A stretch of DNA of 64,000 nucleotides, taken from Candidatus Baltobacteraceae bacterium (GTDB lineage: Bacteria > Vulcanimicrobiota > Vulcanimicrobiia > Vulcanimicrobiales > Vulcanimicrobiaceae). Below the pieces are notes generated by a model. It was not told the DNA's origin. It searched no databases and saw only the letters and a list, made by a program, of their open reading frames with translations. The stretch covers positions 744,001 through 808,000 of the forward strand of contig DASXEW010000003.1 in NCBI GenBank assembly GCA_036489885.1. The letters are read 5' to 3'. Of the stretch, positions 26,855 through 36,905 are shown in pieces; the first letter of the stretch is position 1, and every line of letters begins with the position of its first letter. A program made the position numbers and the translations under genes.

Positions 26855-27274
26855 TTACTCGGTCGGCATCGAGCTCTTCTTCGATGGATCGATGGGACTC
26901 ATCAAACCAACGTCGTTGCCGCTCGGATCGGTGACGATTGCATAACGTGCACCCCAAAATGCGTCATGCGGCGGCTTCACGCCTTTGTGTCCGGCGACGA
27001 TGAGTTTTGTGTATAAAGTATCGACAGCTTCGCGAGATTTAACCGAGAAGCCGATAACGACGGCCGAACTGCTGCTGTTGCCGCGCCACATATTCACCAT
27101 CGGTGTGTTGTCGAATTCGAGGCGTGTTCCGTTGGGAAGTTTTATGTCGACATGCCGCGCGCCGCTGCCGGGCGGCCAATCTCGGCCGTCGTCTTCGATG
27201 CCGAGTCCGAGTGCTCGATAGAAGGCGAGCGTTGCGTCCATGTCCTCGACGATGAGATTCAGCTGGTCGAACAC
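26855..27274 (-). CDS. Glyoxalase/VOC-family protein
   Basis: 139 residues from GTG 27274, which overlaps the 3' end of fdhD by 16 nt. It has the two half-barrels of the vicinal oxygen chelate fold: FDQLNLIVEDMDATLAFYRALG, then HVDIKLPNGTRLEFD, and the second half ending YAIVTDPSGNDVGLMSP. The positions that would ligate metal (His and Glu) are only partly present, so it may bind a small molecule rather than catalyse. Its substrate is unknown. Confidence 0.8.
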   Translation of the reverse strand: MFDQLNLIVEDMDATLAFYRALGLGIEDDGRDWPPGSGARHVDIKLPNGTRLEFDNTPMVNMWRGNSSSSAVVIGFSVKSREAVDTLYTKLIVAGHKGVKPPHDAFWGARYAIVTDPSGNDVGLMSPIDPSKKSSMPTE

Positions 27275-28127
27275 GCAGCCAGTCTTTCGTTTCCCGAATA
27301 GACATTGAAGCGCGAACCGCGCAGAAAACCGATCAGCGTCATCCCGAACTCGCGCGCCAGCCCGACCGCCAGACTGCTCGGCGCTGACACGGCACACACC
27401 ACAGGGACGCCGGCGACGAGTGCCTTCTGCACGATCTCGAAGCTCGTACGTCCGCTCACCATCACGATTGCATTCTGTAACGGAAGCTTGCCGTTCATCA
27501 ACGCCCAGCCGATCAATTTGTCGAGCGCGTTATGCCGTCCGACGTCTTCGCGCAGTGCGAGCAACGCGCCGTTCGCGTCGAAGAGCGCGGCCGCGTGCAA
27601 GCCGCCGGTCGACGCAAAGACACCTTGTGCCGCGCGAAGCTTATCCGGTAGCGAGGTGACGAGTTGCGGGTTGAGCGCCGGTCCAGCGCTAAGGTTGGGA
27701 ACGTTGCGCATGCGCAGCGATTCGATGCTGGCCTTTCCGCAAACGCCGCATGCGCTCGTCGTGAGGAAATGGCGCTCGAGGCGGTCGATCTGCGGCCATG
27801 CGCTGCGCGCCAGCTCGACGTTGACGATATTGTAGCGCTGTTCGGCATCGACGTCGCGATCGACGCAATAGGAAAGGCCACGCAGCTCGCCGCTATCGGC
27901 GATGACGCCTTCATTGTTCAAGAACCCCGCAACGAGCTCGAAGTCGGCACCCGGCGTGCGCATCGTGATCGCAATCGTCCGGGTTTCACCCCCGAGCACG
28001 AGGCGAATCTCGAGCGGCTCTTCGGTCGCGACTTCGTCAAAACGATGGCGTACGGCACCATCTTCGACGGCGTCGATACGAAATTCGGTTTTTGGACCCG
28101 GTCGCTCCGGCTCCCAGGTTACGTCAT
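27259..28127 (-). CDS. fdhD: Formate dehydrogenase sulfurtransferase FdhD, start disrupted
   Basis: FdhD passes sulfur from IscS to the molybdenum cofactor of formate dehydrogenase. The sulfur-carrying cysteines are in TSACGVCGKASI; DVGRHNALDK and MVSGRTSFEIVQKA are family motifs. The conserved segment EEPLEIRL lies upstream of the first in-frame start (GTG 27999). The coding frame runs back to about 28145 without an ATG, GTG or TTG. The ATG at 28127, which overlaps the nrfD stop as ATGA, is one base out of frame. Adding one base after it gives a normal FdhD N-terminus, so an indel or a rare start codon is likely. Confidence 0.85.
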
Positions 28128-29041
28128 TGGAATTGGGCGCTGTAAATCACCACGAATCGCAGGATGAGAACGCCAACTATGACGATGATGGCGCTGGTTC
28201 CCGTCCCCGCGAGGACGCGCGTCGCTGCGACCGCACCGCCGCTGGCGGTATAACGCACGCGACCGCCGCCGGCCAGCCTTCGTAGCGATGGTATGAAGCT
28301 TGCGAAAATGAGGATCCAGCCGATCAGCCACGGCGTTGCCGTCTCGCGCCAGAGCTCGCCCGCACCGGAGAGCGTGACGAAGAAGGCGATGATCATGATC
28401 AGCTCGAGCAGCACGAACCATGCGTCGGCTGCTTCCAAGCGGGCTTCGGTTGGGATCGCGTCATCGGAGCGAAAGCGCGACATGAAAGCCAGAAACGCTG
28501 CCGACGCGCTGAGCGCCGACGCGACGAAGAGTCCGCCGATCGCGTAGCTGTCACTCCAGACCGGCTGGTTCGAGACGCTGAGCACGACGCCGGTGTACGA
28601 CGCGAGAAACAGGGCGACGAGCGAGCCGACGATGTTCCAGACGATCATCGTGCCGCTGACGTTGCGGTCGTTGCCACGTTTGGTCATGACTTCCAAAAAC
28701 GAGACGAACGCGAACAAGCTGAAGATCAACAGCGCCCAAGTACCAAGCGAGATCGGCGACCAGGGCTTGAAATTCAAACCGAGCGATCCCGGCGTCGTAT
28801 TGACCATCATGTGCCAGAACCGCAACGGCTTCCCGAGATCGATCGTCAAGAGGATTCCGCAGACAACCACGATCGGGAAGGACCACATGAAGGCAATGCG
28901 CGCGGTCGCCTCGTCGCGCTGTGAACCCCAAAGACGCAGCATCGTCCCGAGCGTGTACGATCCGCCCGCGATACCCGCGAGGAAGAAGTAGAGCGTGATC
29001 CAGACTTCCCAATGTGGAGGCTGAACGAAATGCTCGGCCAT
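28124..29041 (-). CDS. NrfD/PsrC-type membrane subunit of formate dehydrogenase
   Basis: 305 residues with eight or nine membrane helices. The N-terminal WITLYFFLAGIAGGSYTLGTMLRLWG and LLTIDLGKPLRFWHM are typical of NrfD/PsrC subunits, which bind quinone and carry no heme. It takes the place of the cytochrome b subunit (FdnI) of the E. coli enzyme, so electrons would go from the iron-sulfur subunit directly to menaquinone. It overlaps the ferredoxin gene by one base (TAATG). Confidence 0.9.
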   Translation of the reverse strand: MAEHFVQPPHWEVWITLYFFLAGIAGGSYTLGTMLRLWGSQRDEATARIAFMWSFPIVVVCGILLTIDLGKPLRFWHMMVNTTPGSLGLNFKPWSPISLGTWALLIFSLFAFVSFLEVMTKRGNDRNVSGTMIVWNIVGSLVALFLASYTGVVLSVSNQPVWSDSYAIGGLFVASALSASAAFLAFMSRFRSDDAIPTEARLEAADAWFVLLELIMIIAFFVTLSGAGELWRETATPWLIGWILIFASFIPSLRRLAGGGRVRYTASGGAVAATRVLAGTGTSAIIVIVGVLILRFVVIYSAQFQ

Positions 29042-29841
29042 TACGCGCTCCTTTGCGATTCGTCGGAGTTTTGGCGTATTGCAATCAGGCCTGCGAGGAC
29101 GCCCACTGCGGCGGTTAAGAACGCGCCGAGATAACCTTTGGCGTTATTGCGGCTCGGAAGCTTGGCATTTTGCGCGTTCGGCAAGCCGTAGATCTCAGGT
29201 TTGTCCATCAATAAGAAGAACGCGCCGAGGCCGCCGTAGACCGAATCGTCGCGACCGTACAGTTGTGCCTTGTCGTAACCTTGTGCTTGCAGCGTAGCCA
29301 TACGCGCATCGGCCTTCTTGTGCAAATCGCTGAGCGTGCCGAACTGAATCGATTGCGTCGGGCAGGCCTTTGCGCACGCCGGCGTCATGTTGGCTTGGAG
29401 GCGGTCGTAGCAGAACGTGCACTTCGAGACGACGCCCGTCTGTTCGTTGAAGCCGATCACGCCATACGGACACGCCGACATGCAATCTCGGCAGCCGTTG
29501 CAGACTTCGGGTTGGATGTAGACGGTGTTGTACTCGGTCTTCACGATCGCGTTCGTCGGGCAGACCTCCATGCAACTTGCATTCGCGCAGTGCTTGCAGA
29601 TATCGGACATCATCAGCCAGGCTGCGCCGTTACCGGTGATAATATTCGCCGATTCCGGAACGAGATCGATGAACTTGACGTGCCGGTAGTTTTCCGCATC
29701 CAGCTTTCCGGTATTATCGAAGCCGTCGAGGTACTTGGGTGGATCGCCGGGCAGCTGATTCCACTCTTTGCAGGCGACTTCGCAGGCTTTACATCCGATG
29801 CAGATGCTGGTGTCGGTAAAGAATCCAACCTGTTCAGGCAT
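29041..29841 (-). CDS. fdhB: Formate dehydrogenase iron-sulfur subunit (4 x [4Fe-4S])
   Basis: 266 residues. Four cysteine clusters are visible: CIGCKACEVAC, CKHCANASCMEVCP, CNGCRDCMSACP and CTFCYD with CAKACP further on, the arrangement of FdnH/HybA-type electron-transfer subunits. A single membrane helix near the C-terminus (GYLGAFLTAAVGVLAGLIAI) anchors it. It bridges the catalytic subunit and the NrfD-like subunit. There is no Tat signal; export would ride with the catalytic partner. It lies 3 nt after fdhE. Confidence 0.93.
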   Translation of the reverse strand: MPEQVGFFTDTSICIGCKACEVACKEWNQLPGDPPKYLDGFDNTGKLDAENYRHVKFIDLVPESANIITGNGAAWLMMSDICKHCANASCMEVCPTNAIVKTEYNTVYIQPEVCNGCRDCMSACPYGVIGFNEQTGVVSKCTFCYDRLQANMTPACAKACPTQSIQFGTLSDLHKKADARMATLQAQGYDKAQLYGRDDSVYGGLGAFFLLMDKPEIYGLPNAQNAKLPSRNNAKGYLGAFLTAAVGVLAGLIAIRQNSDESQRSA

Positions 29842-29844
29842 TGC

Positions 29845-30705
29845 TTAAAACCCCATCAGATTCGGCACGATTTTGTTGAGACCGTGTTCGGCGGCGTAGA
29901 GGCTGAGTGGAATGGCTGCGATCTCATCGACGACCGGGACGCTGCGGCGGTCGCGTTCGAGATCGAGACTGAGAAGAAACTTCGAGCACGTTTTGCATCC
30001 GTCGACGCGCATGTGCGGGAAATGCGCCGGCGGCAATTTCGAAGCAGTTCCGGAGCTGCGCGCTTTGATGATGTTTTCGGAAAGCTCGGCTTGCGTCGTT
30101 CCGATCTCGCCGTAGATCGTGAGCTCCTTGCTCTCGTTCTGGCCGCACGAAGCGCATGTGAGCCGTGGGAATTTCCAGGTCCATGCGCAGCGCGAGCACA
30201 GCAAGTGCCGGTGCGCGGTGACGAGATCTTCTTCCGACGGCGCAAAGTAGCTGAGTTGCGGCGGTCCGCCGCACTGCGGGCAGAGATGATCGTCGCGCTT
30301 TTGGCCGAGGTCGAATGTCGAGCTCAGCGCTTCGAGCACCGGCCCAGCAGATGCGCGCGCGAGGTACCGCTCCACGGCGCTCAGGTTCTCACCCAGCAAC
30401 CAGGCTTCAATCGTGGGCTCGAATTCCGATTCGTGAAATGCGGTTAGCACCGATTCGGTCATGCCGGGCGGTCCGCTAGCCACGCTCGCTTCTATGATGC
30501 TCGGCAACACGCGTTCCATTGCGTATGCCGCGATCTGGTCGCGCGCAGGACGGTCGCCGAGCGCGGCATCGAAGGCGCGCTCTTGCGCATCGAGGAGCGC
30601 ACGGTAGAAGTGCAACACTTCCGCCGCAAAGCTCCAGCGCTCCGTAAGCTCGCTTGCGCGTTCGCGCCGTTCCGACCAGCGTTTGTCCAGAACCGGCTGC
30701 AGCAT
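29845..30705 (-). CDS. fdhE: FdhE, formate dehydrogenase maturation protein
   Basis: 286 residues from ATG 30705, which overlaps the catalytic-subunit stop as TGATG; the GTG one codon upstream is the alternative. FdhE is a cytoplasmic rubredoxin-like protein needed for assembly of respiratory formate dehydrogenases. Four CxxC pairs are visible (CPQCGG, CSRC, CASCG, CKTC), as expected for its metal sites. Its position between the catalytic and iron-sulfur subunits, rather than at the end of the operon as in E. coli fdo, is unusual. Confidence 0.92.
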   Translation of the reverse strand: MLQPVLDKRWSERRERASELTERWSFAAEVLHFYRALLDAQERAFDAALGDRPARDQIAAYAMERVLPSIIEASVASGPPGMTESVLTAFHESEFEPTIEAWLLGENLSAVERYLARASAGPVLEALSSTFDLGQKRDDHLCPQCGGPPQLSYFAPSEEDLVTAHRHLLCSRCAWTWKFPRLTCASCGQNESKELTIYGEIGTTQAELSENIIKARSSGTASKLPPAHFPHMRVDGCKTCSKFLLSLDLERDRRSVPVVDEIAAIPLSLYAAEHGLNKIVPNLMGF

Positions 30706-33700
30706 CACGCCTTGTCGATGGCGACGAGGAACGACTTGAACTCGGGCGTTCGTGAATTGGCGTCGCCGACGAACGGCGTGAGCGCATTAGCAAGCCAATA
30801 TTTCGCGCGATCGGGATTCTTGTCGGCTTGAATGCCGACCGTACCCCAGTGGATCGGAATACCGACCTGCCATGCTTTCGTGCCGCCAAGCGTCAGTTGG
30901 CCAACCCGGTTCGTGACGAGTGCGCGTACGACCATCTGCCCACGCTTCGACTTGACCGTAACCAGATCGCCGTTTTTGATGCCCTTCTCTTGCGCGAGAC
31001 CCGGAGGCATTTCGACGAACGGTTCGGGTTGCAGCGCGACGAGCAACGGAACTTGCTGCGTGAGGTAATGCTCGTGCTCGGTCAACCGATATGTCGTCGC
31101 GATGATTGGGAAGTCGGCGCTCGTTCCAAAGCGGTCCGGACGTCCGGCCTTCTGATCGTACAAGTACACGACCGGATCGTTTTGAACACTCGGATGCAAC
31201 GCGTTTTGCACCGGCGATTCCATCGGCTCGTAATGTTCGGGGAGTGGGCCGTCGACGCAGGTGTTGGAGAACAGCCGGCCCGTGCCCTCACCGTTCATGA
31301 TGAACGGCAACCAGGCTTTCGGATCGTGGGGGCTCATCGCCGGCGGATAATCGGGGACGTCACCTACCCATTTCGTACCGTTCCACTTGATGCCCGGACG
31401 CTTCGGATCCCATGGATTTCCGTTCGTGTCCGCCGATGCGCGGTTGTAGATGATGCGACGATTGAGCGGCCAGCTCCACGACCATTGCGGATAGAAACCC
31501 ATGCCCGTCGGATCGTTTTTCGCAGGATCGGAGATGCCCATGCGGCGTTTCATCATATTGCCTTTGGGCGTGTAACTTCCAACGTAGATCCAGTCGCCCG
31601 ACGAGGTCGAGCCGTCGTCGGCGAGCTTGGCGAACGTCACCATCTGCTTACCGGTCTTGAGATCTTTGCCGTTGATCTCGCGAGCCAGCTCGTCGAAATC
31701 CGGCTTGCGCGGATCCTTATAATCCATCGTAAGATGCATGACCGGATCCGGGAACTTGCCGCCTTCCTTTTGATAAAGCGACTTGACGCGCTGGAAGATC
31801 TCGGCGGTGATCCAGTGATCGTGCCTGGCTTCGCCTTCAGGCGGAATGACTTGGTCTTTCCACTGCGACCAGCGTCCGCTATTCGTGAAGCTTCCCGATT
31901 TTTCGATCCAGTGAGTCGTCGGGACCATGAAAACTTCGGTTTGGATCTTAGCCGGATCCATGTCGACGGCCGTGTGCCAAAATTCCGATGTGGTCGTCGG
32001 AAAAGGATCCATTACGACGAGCCATTTGAGATTTGAAAGCCCCTGCAAGACTTGATTCGTATCAGGGCCGATGCTGGTTGCCGTCATCCCCGAGAGGAAG
32101 ACGCCTTCCATCTTGCCTTGGATGGCTTGATCCCAAATCGTAATCCACGACGAGTTGCCGTCGGGCTTCGGCAGATAACTGAACGCAAAGTCGTTGTCTT
32201 TTGTCGCGGTATCGCCATACCACGCTTTGAGCAAGCTGACTAAAAACTTCTTGTAGTTGGTGCCGAAGAAGTTCCAGGAATTCGGATCGAGCTTCTTCGA
32301 CGCACTCGCCTTGAGGTAGTCGTCGATATTCTTCTGGCCCGGCAGTGGGACTTTGAGATAGCCCGGCAAGATTTCCCACGAGATCGCGTGGTCGGTGTTG
32401 CCCTGAATGTTGGCGTGTCCGCGCTCGGCATTCATACCGCCGCCCGGCCGCCCCATGTTGCCGAGCAGCAACTGGAGCAACGCACCGGAACGAATCAACT
32501 GCACGCCGGTGGTGTGCTGGGTGAGGCCGACCGCATAAACGATCGTCATGACTTTGTCGGGACGGCCCATTTCGCCGACAACCTCGGCGATCTTCAGAAA
32601 GTCGGCTTGCGGTATGCCGGTGATCGTTTCAACCATCGCCGGCGTATAGCGCGCATAGTGCGCTTTCATGAGCTGGAAGACGCAGCGAGGATGCTGCATG
32701 CTAATGTCACGTTGCGCGAAACCGTCGGCGCCTAAGTCGTAATTCCACGCGGTTGCTTCGTAGCTGCGTTTTTTCGGATCGTAGCCGTTGAAGAGTCCGT
32801 CGGAGAATCCGTACTTTTCGTTGACGATGAACGTTGCGTTCGTGTAATTGCGCACGTACTCGTCATGGAATTTGTTGTTCTGCAGCACGTAATTCATCAA
32901 GCCGCCGAACATCGCAACATCGGTGCCCGTGCGGATACGCACGTATTGATCCGCCACTGCCGACGTACGCGAGAACCGCGGATCAACGTGGATGATCTTG
33001 GCGCCGCCGCCCTTGCCCGGGCCACGCGCCGGATCCAGCTTGGCGCGCATGAACCATTGGAATCCGACCGGATGGGCTTCCGCCGGGTTCGCACCGGCGA
33101 TGAAGATGACGTCGGCGTTCTTGATGTCACGCCAGTGATTCGTCATTGCTCCGCGTCCGAACGTGGCGGCCAAACTGACCACCGTCGGACCGTGTCAAAC
33201 CCTGGCTTGCTGCTCCAAATGTGTCAGGCCGAGCCCGCGCATCACTTTGGCGGCGAAGTAGCCTTCTTCGCTCGAAAACGCAGCGCCGCCGGCAAACGAG
33301 ATTCCGTCTGTGCGATTGACGAGATTGCCCTTTTTGTCGACTTGGACGAAGGTGCGGTCGCGGGAGTCTTTCACGCGACGGGCAATCTTGTCGAGCATAT
33401 CGTCCCACGAGATCTTTTGCCACTCGGTCGCACCGGGAGCGCGGTAGAGCGGTGACTCGACGCGCCGGCTCGAAACTGCGAGCTGCATCGCGGTCGCACC
33501 CTTGGGGCAGAGGCGGCCCTCGTTGATAGGGCTATCGGGATCGCCCTCGATCTGCAAGATATTGACCGTCCCGTCGGCATTTTGCCGCGTGTACGCGATC
33601 ATCGAGCATCCGACCGCGCAATAGGGACATACCGAGTGCGCTTCGGTCGCGCCGGCGATTCTAAGCTGCTTCTTGATCTCCGTCGCTTTCGCAACGTCGA

Positions 33701-33779
33701 ACCCCAGCTCGGAGGTCAGCAGAACTCCGGCGCCAGCGCCGGCAAACTTGAAGAAGTCTCCCCGTGTCACCTTAGCCAA
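30705..33779 (-). CDS. fdhA: Formate dehydrogenase catalytic subunit, selenocysteine protein
   Basis: One gene of 1025 codons with an in-frame UGA at 33197-33195 (residue 195). The context ARV-UGA-HGPT followed by a SLAATFGRGAMTNHW-type stretch is that of E. coli FdnG around its selenocysteine. The N-terminus holds the [4Fe-4S] ligands Cys51, 54, 58 and 91 (SVCPYCAVGC, RLCPKG). His196 after the Sec is the conserved active-site histidine. The remainder is a bis-MGD molybdopterin oxidoreductase; length matches FdnG. It oxidises formate to CO2 at the periplasmic face. The start is TTG 33779 with GGAGGGG upstream; the Tat motif is degenerate (VTRGDFFK). Confidence 0.95.
33165..33183 (-). promoter_or_regulatory. 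Bacterial SECIS hairpin for fdhA
   Basis: On the mRNA strand GGUGGUC (33183-33177) pairs with GGCCGCC (33171-33165), seven pairs including two G-U, around the loop AGUUU. It begins 11 nt after the UGA, the same spacing as in E. coli fdhF, whose loop (AGGUCU) also presents a GU pair to SelB. The stem lies in coding sequence, as is usual for bacteria. Confidence 0.8.
33195..33197 (-). other. In-frame UGA selenocysteine codon
   Basis: TGA on the minus strand between codons for ARV and HGPT of fdhA. Frame, alignment to the known Sec position and the SECIS hairpin downstream all support selenocysteine insertion rather than termination. Confidence 0.93.
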
Positions 33780-33864: not shown

Positions 33865-35337
33865 CTAGATGACCTTGATCTTACCCATCATTCCGCCATC
33901 TTCATGATCGGTGAGATGGCAATGGAATAGAAAGGTCCCGCGGATGATGGGATCGCGAAAATCGACGATGATGCGGAGCTTCGCGCGGGGCGGGACGTCG
34001 ACGACGTCGCGCCACTCGTGGGTCGCCTCGACGACGAAGTGGACCTGATGGATATGAAACGCATGGACTTCATCGCTGCGGTTGTCGAGCGTCCACTCTT
34101 CGGTGGTCCCGGCACGCGCGACGAACATCGGCCGATCGCCGGGTGAAAAGCGCTTCCCGTTGAGCGAAAAGCCGTTCGCGTCTTCACGGAAGTAAATTGT
34201 GCGGTGCTGCGCGACGCGCGCGGGGAGCGCCGTGTAATCGCGATCGTTCGCGACGCCGAAGGGCGGTGCAACACGCGTGGTGACATTTGTGCCACGATCG
34301 TCGACAAGCTCACCGAAGATGACGCCCGGATTCGGTTCGCCGGCTTTGCCGCCGTCGTAACAGCGCGAGAGCAAGAGTTGCGGATGCGCTGCGCCGGTGA
34401 CGACGATCTCAGCGCGTCCACCCGGCGGCAGCAACACATGATCGATGTCGTGTTCCGGTGTTTTTTCCAGCAGCTTGATCGGAATGCCGTCGCGAGCCGC
34501 GAGCTGCATACGCACACCTGCAATCGCAAGATCGTAGTGTCGCTTGCCGGACGCATTGAGCACGCGCCAAAGCTGGCGTTCGCCGGGCGCTATTGCGAGC
34601 GTTGCGCTTGGGATTCCGTTAATCGTAGGTTGCGCGTCGGCATCGACTCCGCAGGGCGTATCGCCTTGATAATCTTCATCGTCCATACCGACGTGCGTCT
34701 GCGCTTGCGCAGTCGGTAGCGGGCCTGCCGTCAATTGCTGTTTGCTTTCGGCTGCACCGACGCTCGGATCGCGCGGGATGTCGCGCAGCACGATTACGCG
34801 TTCGCGCAATCCGGCCAGACTCGGAACCTCGTCCGCAATTCCCTCGATTACGATCGCGCCCGCCATGCCGTTTCCGAGCTCCCAATTCGCAAGCCCGTGA
34901 GCGTGCGGATGATACCAGTAGAGTCCGGGAGGCTGATTGCGTCCGATGCGCACCGTGTAATCGAACGCACGTGCGGGCGCCACCATTGTTGTCAGTACGT
35001 CGTCACCGGGCGGACGCGGCGAAGTCGTGAGTCCGTGAAAGTGCAGGTTCGAATCCGAGACCATGCCAAGCCCGCAAAATTCAGGCAACGCGTTGATGTA
35101 ATGGACGCGAATCACATCGCCGGGACGCACTCGAATCGTCGGCGCGACTTCACGACCGTGCCAAAAGAACGCCGGGCGCCCTTGCGGATCGAGTTCGGCG
35201 CGCAGCGTCAGCGCGGCGACGCCGCTCTGAGCGTGCACTTCGGGTATTTCTGGAAGATCGGGAGCGCCGAGCGTGGACGGGCCGCGCCAACCGAGCAGCG
35301 CGGCGAAGACCAGAACGAACGCTAAGACGAGTGGCAA
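33865..35337 (-). CDS. Multicopper oxidase
   Basis: 490 residues, starting at TTG 35337 and overlapping the upstream gene by 16 nt; an N-terminal hydrophobic segment acts as signal or anchor. All four copper-binding strings are present: NLHFHG, YWYHPHAHG, HAFHIHQVHF and FHCHLTDHEDGGMMG, the last giving the type 1 Cys, His and axial Met. It is a laccase/CueO-like three-domain oxidase that oxidises phenols or metal ions with O2 in the periplasm. It is co-directional with the phospholipase C-like gene and precedes the formate dehydrogenase genes. Confidence 0.92.
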   Translation of the reverse strand: MPLVLAFVLVFAALLGWRGPSTLGAPDLPEIPEVHAQSGVAALTLRAELDPQGRPAFFWHGREVAPTIRVRPGDVIRVHYINALPEFCGLGMVSDSNLHFHGLTTSPRPPGDDVLTTMVAPARAFDYTVRIGRNQPPGLYWYHPHAHGLANWELGNGMAGAIVIEGIADEVPSLAGLRERVIVLRDIPRDPSVGAAESKQQLTAGPLPTAQAQTHVGMDDEDYQGDTPCGVDADAQPTINGIPSATLAIAPGERQLWRVLNASGKRHYDLAIAGVRMQLAARDGIPIKLLEKTPEHDIDHVLLPPGGRAEIVVTGAAHPQLLLSRCYDGGKAGEPNPGVIFGELVDDRGTNVTTRVAPPFGVANDRDYTALPARVAQHRTIYFREDANGFSLNGKRFSPGDRPMFVARAGTTEEWTLDNRSDEVHAFHIHQVHFVVEATHEWRDVVDVPPRAKLRIIVDFRDPIIRGTFLFHCHLTDHEDGGMMGKIKVI

Positions 35338-36905
35338 GCCAGTGGTTGTTGTTCGAAGTCGAAGGCGTTCAGAAGCGGATTTGCGCGCATGTCGTGCGAG
35401 CCGAGGCTAGGCAGCCCAAAGCGGCGCTCAATCAGCGCGAGAATCGAAGCGGTCTCATATTTAGTGTGATCGACGAAGTGGGGTTTTGCGTATGGAGATA
35501 CGATGATTGCGGGGACGCGGGTTCCCGGTCCCCACTCGTCGACCTTCGGCGGCGCCACATGATCCCAACGTCCGCCGTTTTCGTCGTAAGTGACGATGAT
35601 GACGGAATCTTTCCAATAAGATGACGTGCAGATCGCGCTTATGAGCTTCTGGAGGTGCTGACCGCCGCGCGCGAGCGTCGAATAGTTGGGATGCTCGTTG
35701 TCGAGGCCGACCGGCTTGACGAAGACGACGCCCGGCAGCGTCTTGCTTTCGAGGTCGCTGAAGAAGTGCGATTCGTCTTGAAGATGCTCGGCTTTGGCCG
35801 CCGAGCCGTCAGTGCCCCATCGTTGAAAATATGCGAACGGCTGGTGATGATACTGGAAGCACAATCCCGCGGGCGTCGGATTCGGGTCAGCCGCGCTAGG
35901 ATTCGGGCAACCGTTTGCGCGTGGATCGTGCGCGAGCGCAAGATCCCAACCGCCGCTATACCATTTCCACGAAACGGATGGCGAGTGATCGGTCAAAAGG
36001 TCACCGATCGTCTTTTGTGACGGCGGAATTGGGCGTAGGAGCTGGTCGGGCTTTACGCGGCTTGGATGCGGGCTATTCTGGGTGAACGTCGTGTTCACGA
36101 CCCATAGCGGTCCGCTGCCGCCCGGTCGCGGCATCGTCGTGAGATTCGAATCGTTGAGCGTGTGCGTTTTGGGATCCCACGACGAAGCGAAACCTGGTGC
36201 GCCGGCGGGTAACGGCTGATTCCACTCGGGCGTGCACGCGCAGATCAACCACTGATGGTTCAGGTACGAGCCGCCGAACGCGCTGTGAAAAAAGTTGTCG
36301 GCGAGCGTGTAATGCTGCGCGATAACCCCTTCGGGGAGATGCGTCGCATTGTAGTAGCCGAACACCAGTCCGGGGTTGCTCGCGTACGCCGAGAACTTGT
36401 CCATGGGCGCCGGACCGGCGGCCTCGAGTGCGCCGTTGTCGATTTGCAACTGCTCGTGCCAGAAGATGTGCCAGAGATCGCCCGTCAGCGCAGACGTCGG
36501 AATGAAATCAGTCAGGTCGTACGGCCGCAGCGGAAGTCCGAGCGGAATGTGCGGATCTTGCTCGCCGCCGGCGAGACCTTGCCAACCACAGGGCCATGGG
36601 CCGGTCGGACGACCCGCGCGAATGAGTGCCGGCGGAAGTCCAGTCATCGCCGTATAGTTGTCTGACCCCGTCGGACATTGGAGCTGCGGCGTTCCGCGGC
36701 CGTGCGCACCGTTCGCGCCCGGATACTCGGAATAGAGCCCATCGAAGCTCCAGTTCTCTTCATATATAACGATGATGTGGTTGATCTTCGAACGTAAGCC
36801 CGCAAGCTGGGACTCACCTATCGGCGCGGCGCTCGTATCGACGGCGCCGGTGAAGGCGCAGAACGAAAAGAGAAACAACGCAGCGGTACGCACAAACAGT
36901 CGCAT
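35322..36905 (-). CDS. Secreted phosphoesterase (phospholipase C/AcpA family)
   Basis: 527 residues with a signal peptide (about 1-27). The N-terminal IIVIYEENWSFDGLY and the C-terminal IIVTYDENGGRWDHVAPP carry the metal-binding and nucleophile positions of the phosphoesterase superfamily that includes phospholipase C and acid phosphatase AcpA. DNFFHSAFGGSYLNHQW is also typical. It would release phosphate from phospholipids or organic phosphate outside the cytoplasm. The stop codon overlaps the start of the multicopper oxidase. Confidence 0.88.
   Translation of the reverse strand: MRLFVRTAALFLFSFCAFTGAVDTSAAPIGESQLAGLRSKINHIIVIYEENWSFDGLYSEYPGANGAHGRGTPQLQCPTGSDNYTAMTGLPPALIRAGRPTGPWPCGWQGLAGGEQDPHIPLGLPLRPYDLTDFIPTSALTGDLWHIFWHEQLQIDNGALEAAGPAPMDKFSAYASNPGLVFGYYNATHLPEGVIAQHYTLADNFFHSAFGGSYLNHQWLICACTPEWNQPLPAGAPGFASSWDPKTHTLNDSNLTTMPRPGGSGPLWVVNTTFTQNSPHPSRVKPDQLLRPIPPSQKTIGDLLTDHSPSVSWKWYSGGWDLALAHDPRANGCPNPSAADPNPTPAGLCFQYHHQPFAYFQRWGTDGSAAKAEHLQDESHFFSDLESKTLPGVVFVKPVGLDNEHPNYSTLARGGQHLQKLISAICTSSYWKDSVIIVTYDENGGRWDHVAPPKVDEWGPGTRVPAIIVSPYAKPHFVDHTKYETASILALIERRFGLPSLGSHDMRANPLLNAFDFEQQPLACHSS

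Follow-up and report, generated by a model that had tools for sequence, protein, structure and literature searches.

This locus raises the question of whether two adjacent open reading frames on the minus strand are the remains of a broken gene or a single gene whose internal UGA codon is read as selenocysteine (Sec). Both lie in the window, the 64,000-nucleotide stretch of DNA analyzed here (C3:744001-808000), which belongs to a genome of 3.48 Mb in four contigs with a completeness of 95.9%. The first-pass annotation had claimed that a 194-codon ORF (33195-33779) and an 825-codon ORF (30705-33182) share one frame and are separated by a UGA, and this was confirmed from the sequence: the minus strand from 33779 to 30705 holds a single frame of 1,024 codons, and the UGA at 33197-33195 is its sole break. 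The count of 825 codons begins at an internal GTG, while the open frame past the UGA comprises 829 codons. The gene starts with a TTG at 33779, with GGGAGGGG just 5' of the start, and its terminal stop (codon 1025, 30707-30705) is again a UGA. The accompanying expectation that automatic annotation would report two truncated proteins was too strong, since such genes need not be split: on an E. coli plasmid in RefSeq, fdnG is annotated as a single full-length CDS. All features are summarized in Table 1.

Table 1. Coordinates of the formate dehydrogenase genes, the recoding signals and the selenocysteine genes. Plain numbers are window positions; C3 marks positions on the window's contig outside the window.
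Feature	Position	Strand	Basis or remark
fdhA/fdnG-like, selenocysteine formate dehydrogenase-N alpha subunit	30705..33779	minus	TIGR01553, 1KQF alignment, Pfam
Predicted Sec UGA (codon/residue 195)	33195..33197	minus	Sequence; aligns with FdnG Sec; TGA in 93/93 loci
Putative SECIS apical hairpin GGUGGUC-AGUUU-GGCCGCC	33165..33183	minus	Covariation; 11 nt past UGA; -10.7 kcal/mol
Rfam SECIS_3 (RF01989) match	33142..33200	minus	64.5 bits (gathering score 63); E 9.4e-13
FdhE-like accessory protein	29845..30708	minus	TIGR01562 E 8.9e-12, under curated cut-off; PF24859 and PF24860 just under cut-off
FdhB/FdnH-like iron-sulphur (ferredoxin-type) beta subunit	29041..29841	minus	TIGR01582 E 3.1e-48, under curated cut-off; PF13247
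NrfD-type membrane subunit instead of FdnI cytochrome b	28124..29041	minus	PF03916 75 bits, over cut-off
FdhD sulphurtransferase, needed for formate dehydrogenase maturation	27259..27999	minus	PF02634 228 bits
selA	C3:937562-938890		Window's contig
selB	C3:938930-940774		Adjoins selA
tRNA-Sec, anticodon UCA (TCA)	C3:963841-963930		Window's contig
selD	C3:303143-304069		Window's contig; L049:1450-2511

Read through the UGA, the protein scored 1301 bits against TIGR01553 (residues 4-1023 on model positions 2-1009), for which the curated cut-off is 814, and 1013 bits along the length of E. coli FdnG (1KQF). The UGA codon aligns with the X that stands for Sec in the 1KQF chain, and in both proteins the site is preceded by QARV and followed by HGPTV, so the proposed match of the flanking residues to FdnG holds around the E. 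coli Sec. Pfam assigned Molybdop_Fe4S4, Molybdopterin and Molydop_binding domains to the alpha protein, including the N-terminal 4Fe-4S domain (PF04879, residues 46-100), and its UHGP is an instance of UHxP, the published Sec motif of formate dehydrogenase (PMC13188914). The locus resembles its E. coli counterpart in the full-length homology, in the position of the Sec within QARVUHGPT, in a SECIS right after the UGA (Rfam SECIS_3) and in an adjoining gene for the Fe-S beta subunit. However, the identity to FdnG is only approximately 47%, the start codon is TTG, an FdhE-like gene sits between alpha and beta (operon order fdhA-fdhE-fdhB-nrfD-type-fdhD), and an NrfD-type membrane subunit is encoded rather than an FdnI-type cytochrome b gamma subunit.

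A nonsense mutation or a sequencing error could have split a Cys-type gene, in which case the two halves would be a pseudogene. Homologues with Cys at the site do exist, namely ten from Bradyrhizobium, yet these are distant (29-30% identity), are the only ones with Cys there and form a Sec/Cys pair with the present gene. The codon is TGA at every one of the 93 loci with an alignment across the site, some genomes being counted twice as two collections were searched (e.g., L019 and L056). These loci span several phyla (Eremiobacterota, Chloroflexota/Dormibacterota, Rokubacteria and Pseudomonadota), and locus L041 also has a stop at the site. Close relatives with a sense codon, named by the first-pass annotation as the observation that would favor a nonsense mutation, were looked for, and none was found among the 93 covering loci. 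Differences by codon position are furthermore alike before and after the UGA, which places the second half under the same protein-level constraint, and the SECIS is selected at silent sites, as described below. With the UGA kept throughout the lineage and constraint acting downstream of it, the pseudogene or sequencing error was ruled out as an explanation, its residual probability being very slight.

Even less probable is a changed genetic code, in which UGA would be an ordinary residue throughout the organism and selenium would not be involved. Reading UGA as sense would keep the frame open, though no support for such a change was found, and general reassignment was ruled out because the gene itself ends in UGA. 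The same terminal codon was seen in 56 of the 58 close homologues with a visible end, meaning that UGA serves as both a sense and a stop codon within one message, and the genome holds a complete set of Sec genes.

The Sec reading calls for a SECIS element, and a hairpin with arms GGUGGUC/GGCCGCC and loop AGUUU, starting 11 nt after the UGA, had been described from the sequence. It was confirmed at 33183-33165, with the SECIS_3 match over the cut-off. This was the sole Rfam family matched in the window as well as the sole SECIS_3 match in the genome, and among 14 control genomes the family was matched in E. coli only. With a stem of 7 bp and 18 nt from UGA to loop, the hairpin agrees with the published bSECIS model, which specifies a G within the first two loop positions, a stem of 4-16 bp, 16-37 nt from UGA to loop and an MFE of -7.5 or lower; the AGUUU loop has the N1-G-U-N-N2 form of that model (PMC13188914). 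The folding energy of the 51-nt stretch is modest (z of -1.83) and on its own is weak evidence; it is the covariation that makes the hairpin convincing.

A gap-free layout of 11 nt, a 7-nt arm, a 5-nt loop and a second 7-nt arm was readable in 59 distinct sequences. Most of them keep the hairpin, with compensatory changes that include paired silent codon positions, and the loops are AGUUU (35), GGUCU (17), AGUCU (5) and GCUCU (2). In a few more distant sequences (e.g., L104, L106, L107, L115-L118, L120 and L122), between one and four of the seven pairs are missing, chiefly at the stem base. The covariation test used 17 representatives hand-picked from the closer types, a sample that leans towards structure, and here 99.2% of the cells pair, compared with 28-53% in slid versions. 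The covariation score reached 0.579 against 0.258 (sd 0.032) in shuffles. Third codon bases covary while the protein stays unchanged, in 39 of 40 cases for Val(+5)/Ala(+9) and in 18 of 18 for Pro(+6)/Leu(+8). The permutation p of 5e-5 takes no account of relatedness. This covariation at silent positions rules out that the SECIS match reflects mere coding homology and, as far as sequence can tell, is a clean sign of selection on the hairpin at the RNA level.

The first-pass annotation had further implied selA, selB, selD and a tRNA-Sec gene elsewhere in the genome, and the genome search recovered all four outside the window but on its contig (Table 1). The encoded SelB has a C-terminal winged-helix domain (PF09107), and its binding to the hairpin is predicted. 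The selD gene has an in-frame UGA of its own (TSGUASK), followed by a hairpin approximately 32 nt downstream, and is probably a second selenoprotein gene of this genome, which would then encode at least two likely selenoproteins. Across 60 genomes of the lineage, a formate dehydrogenase match was present in 36 of the 52 with selB over the cut-off or a tRNA-Sec match scoring more than 60 bits, whereas none was present in the 8 that lacked both (one-sided Fisher test, 3e-4; the statistic ignores kinship); the SelB profile score in relatives is partly below the cut-off in incomplete MAGs.

With regards to the open frame, the SECIS, its covariation, the complete Sec gene set and the lineage-wide UGA, the locus almost certainly encodes a Sec-containing formate dehydrogenase-N alpha subunit, within the fdhA-fdhE-fdhB-nrfD-type-fdhD operon, whose UGA at codon 195 is read as Sec. 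In the proposed mechanism, SelB would carry the Sec-tRNA(UCA) and also bind the SECIS hairpin 11 nt downstream of the UGA, which would lead the ribosome to read codon 195 as Sec, whereas the later UGA at codon 1025 would terminate the protein. Active-site Mo or W would have the Sec as a ligand, and the complex would oxidize formate and pass the electrons via the Fe-S beta and NrfD-type subunits to quinone. We infer the insertion of Sec at codon 195 from the sequence, and likewise the metal, the electron acceptor and the membrane side of the complex.

The altered twin-arginine motif is one oddity of this enzyme that invites follow-up. Whereas FdnG has RR, the Tat motif of the alpha subunit (33747-33779, minus strand) reads VTRGDFF, with RG; the twin-arginine signal belongs to the E. 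coli protein and to most relatives but is no part of the TIGR01553 model. Among the class-1 relatives, RG recurs in L056 and L057 and RQ is found in L058 and L096, with RR in the others where readable. The enzyme could be a Sec formate dehydrogenase whose alpha subunit is no longer exported, leaving the catalytic unit in the cytoplasm on the NrfD-type anchor. The non-RR motifs of these relatives would fit this, as would the TatC gene and the RR-type N-terminus (MKSVSRRQF) that occur elsewhere in the genome. However, a hydrophobic signal-like stretch is retained in the alpha N-terminus, and the RR relatives L068 and L098 are nested among RG and RQ relatives in the tree, so export with one arginine could still take place, and we consider a loss of export unlikely. 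The altered motif makes the enzyme's location uncertain, and the complex as a whole looks like a Tat-exported, membrane-bound formate dehydrogenase with an NrfD-type anchor. For the lineage, we only tentatively propose that a subset of Eremiobacterota lost the second Tat arginine and kept the NrfD anchor, such that either the active site would face the cytoplasm or Tat would tolerate a single arginine. If true, a cytoplasm-facing active site with an NrfD anchor would give a formate dehydrogenase that is linked to quinone and has an unusual topology.

Among bacterial selenoproteins, FdhA is the most widespread and of the best-known and commonest kind, and both the Sec mechanism and the enzyme are textbook knowledge. 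At the level of genes, the present analysis documents the use of selenocysteine, together with the full set of Sec genes, in Eremiobacterota (WPS-2), a soil lineage that has been little studied. In the open-access literature searched, no paper linking Eremiobacterota or Vulcanimicrobiota to selenocysteine or selenoproteins was found, and the sole match for WPS-2 was an unrelated paper about tea; absence there is no proof of novelty. Among named organisms, the gene has its closest relatives in Candidatus Eremiobacterota (WPS-2) MAGs (77-80% identity), with which it groups in the tree at a local support of 96-98. Sec formate dehydrogenases of soil Chloroflexota/Dormibacterota, Rokubacteria and Nonomuraea are alike in identity (65-80%), in the TGA at the site and in hairpin and loop type, but unlike the present protein they have RR in the Tat motif wherever it is readable. 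A quick tree places the homologues of Nonomuraea gerenzanensis (L135:6529) and of Rokubacteria MAGs (L079, L081 and L093), with 65-68% identity, among those of Eremiobacterota and soil Chloroflexota, a pattern suggestive of misbinned MAGs or of transfer of the gene across phyla.

A second type of Sec formate dehydrogenase (L024-L047) is widespread in the lineage of the window's organism and was not found in its own genome at E 1e-60. This type has the TGA at the same site and the same SECIS geometry, but differs in its identity of 39-43% over the length, in the lack of a recognizable Tat motif, in UHSST after the Sec and in a SECIS loop that is mostly GGUCU instead of AGUUU. Finally, directly upstream of the formate dehydrogenase operon and on the same strand (33865-36905, minus), the window encodes a 490-aa multicopper oxidase, identified by Pfam, and a protein of 527 aa that, judged by eye, may be a phosphoesterase.
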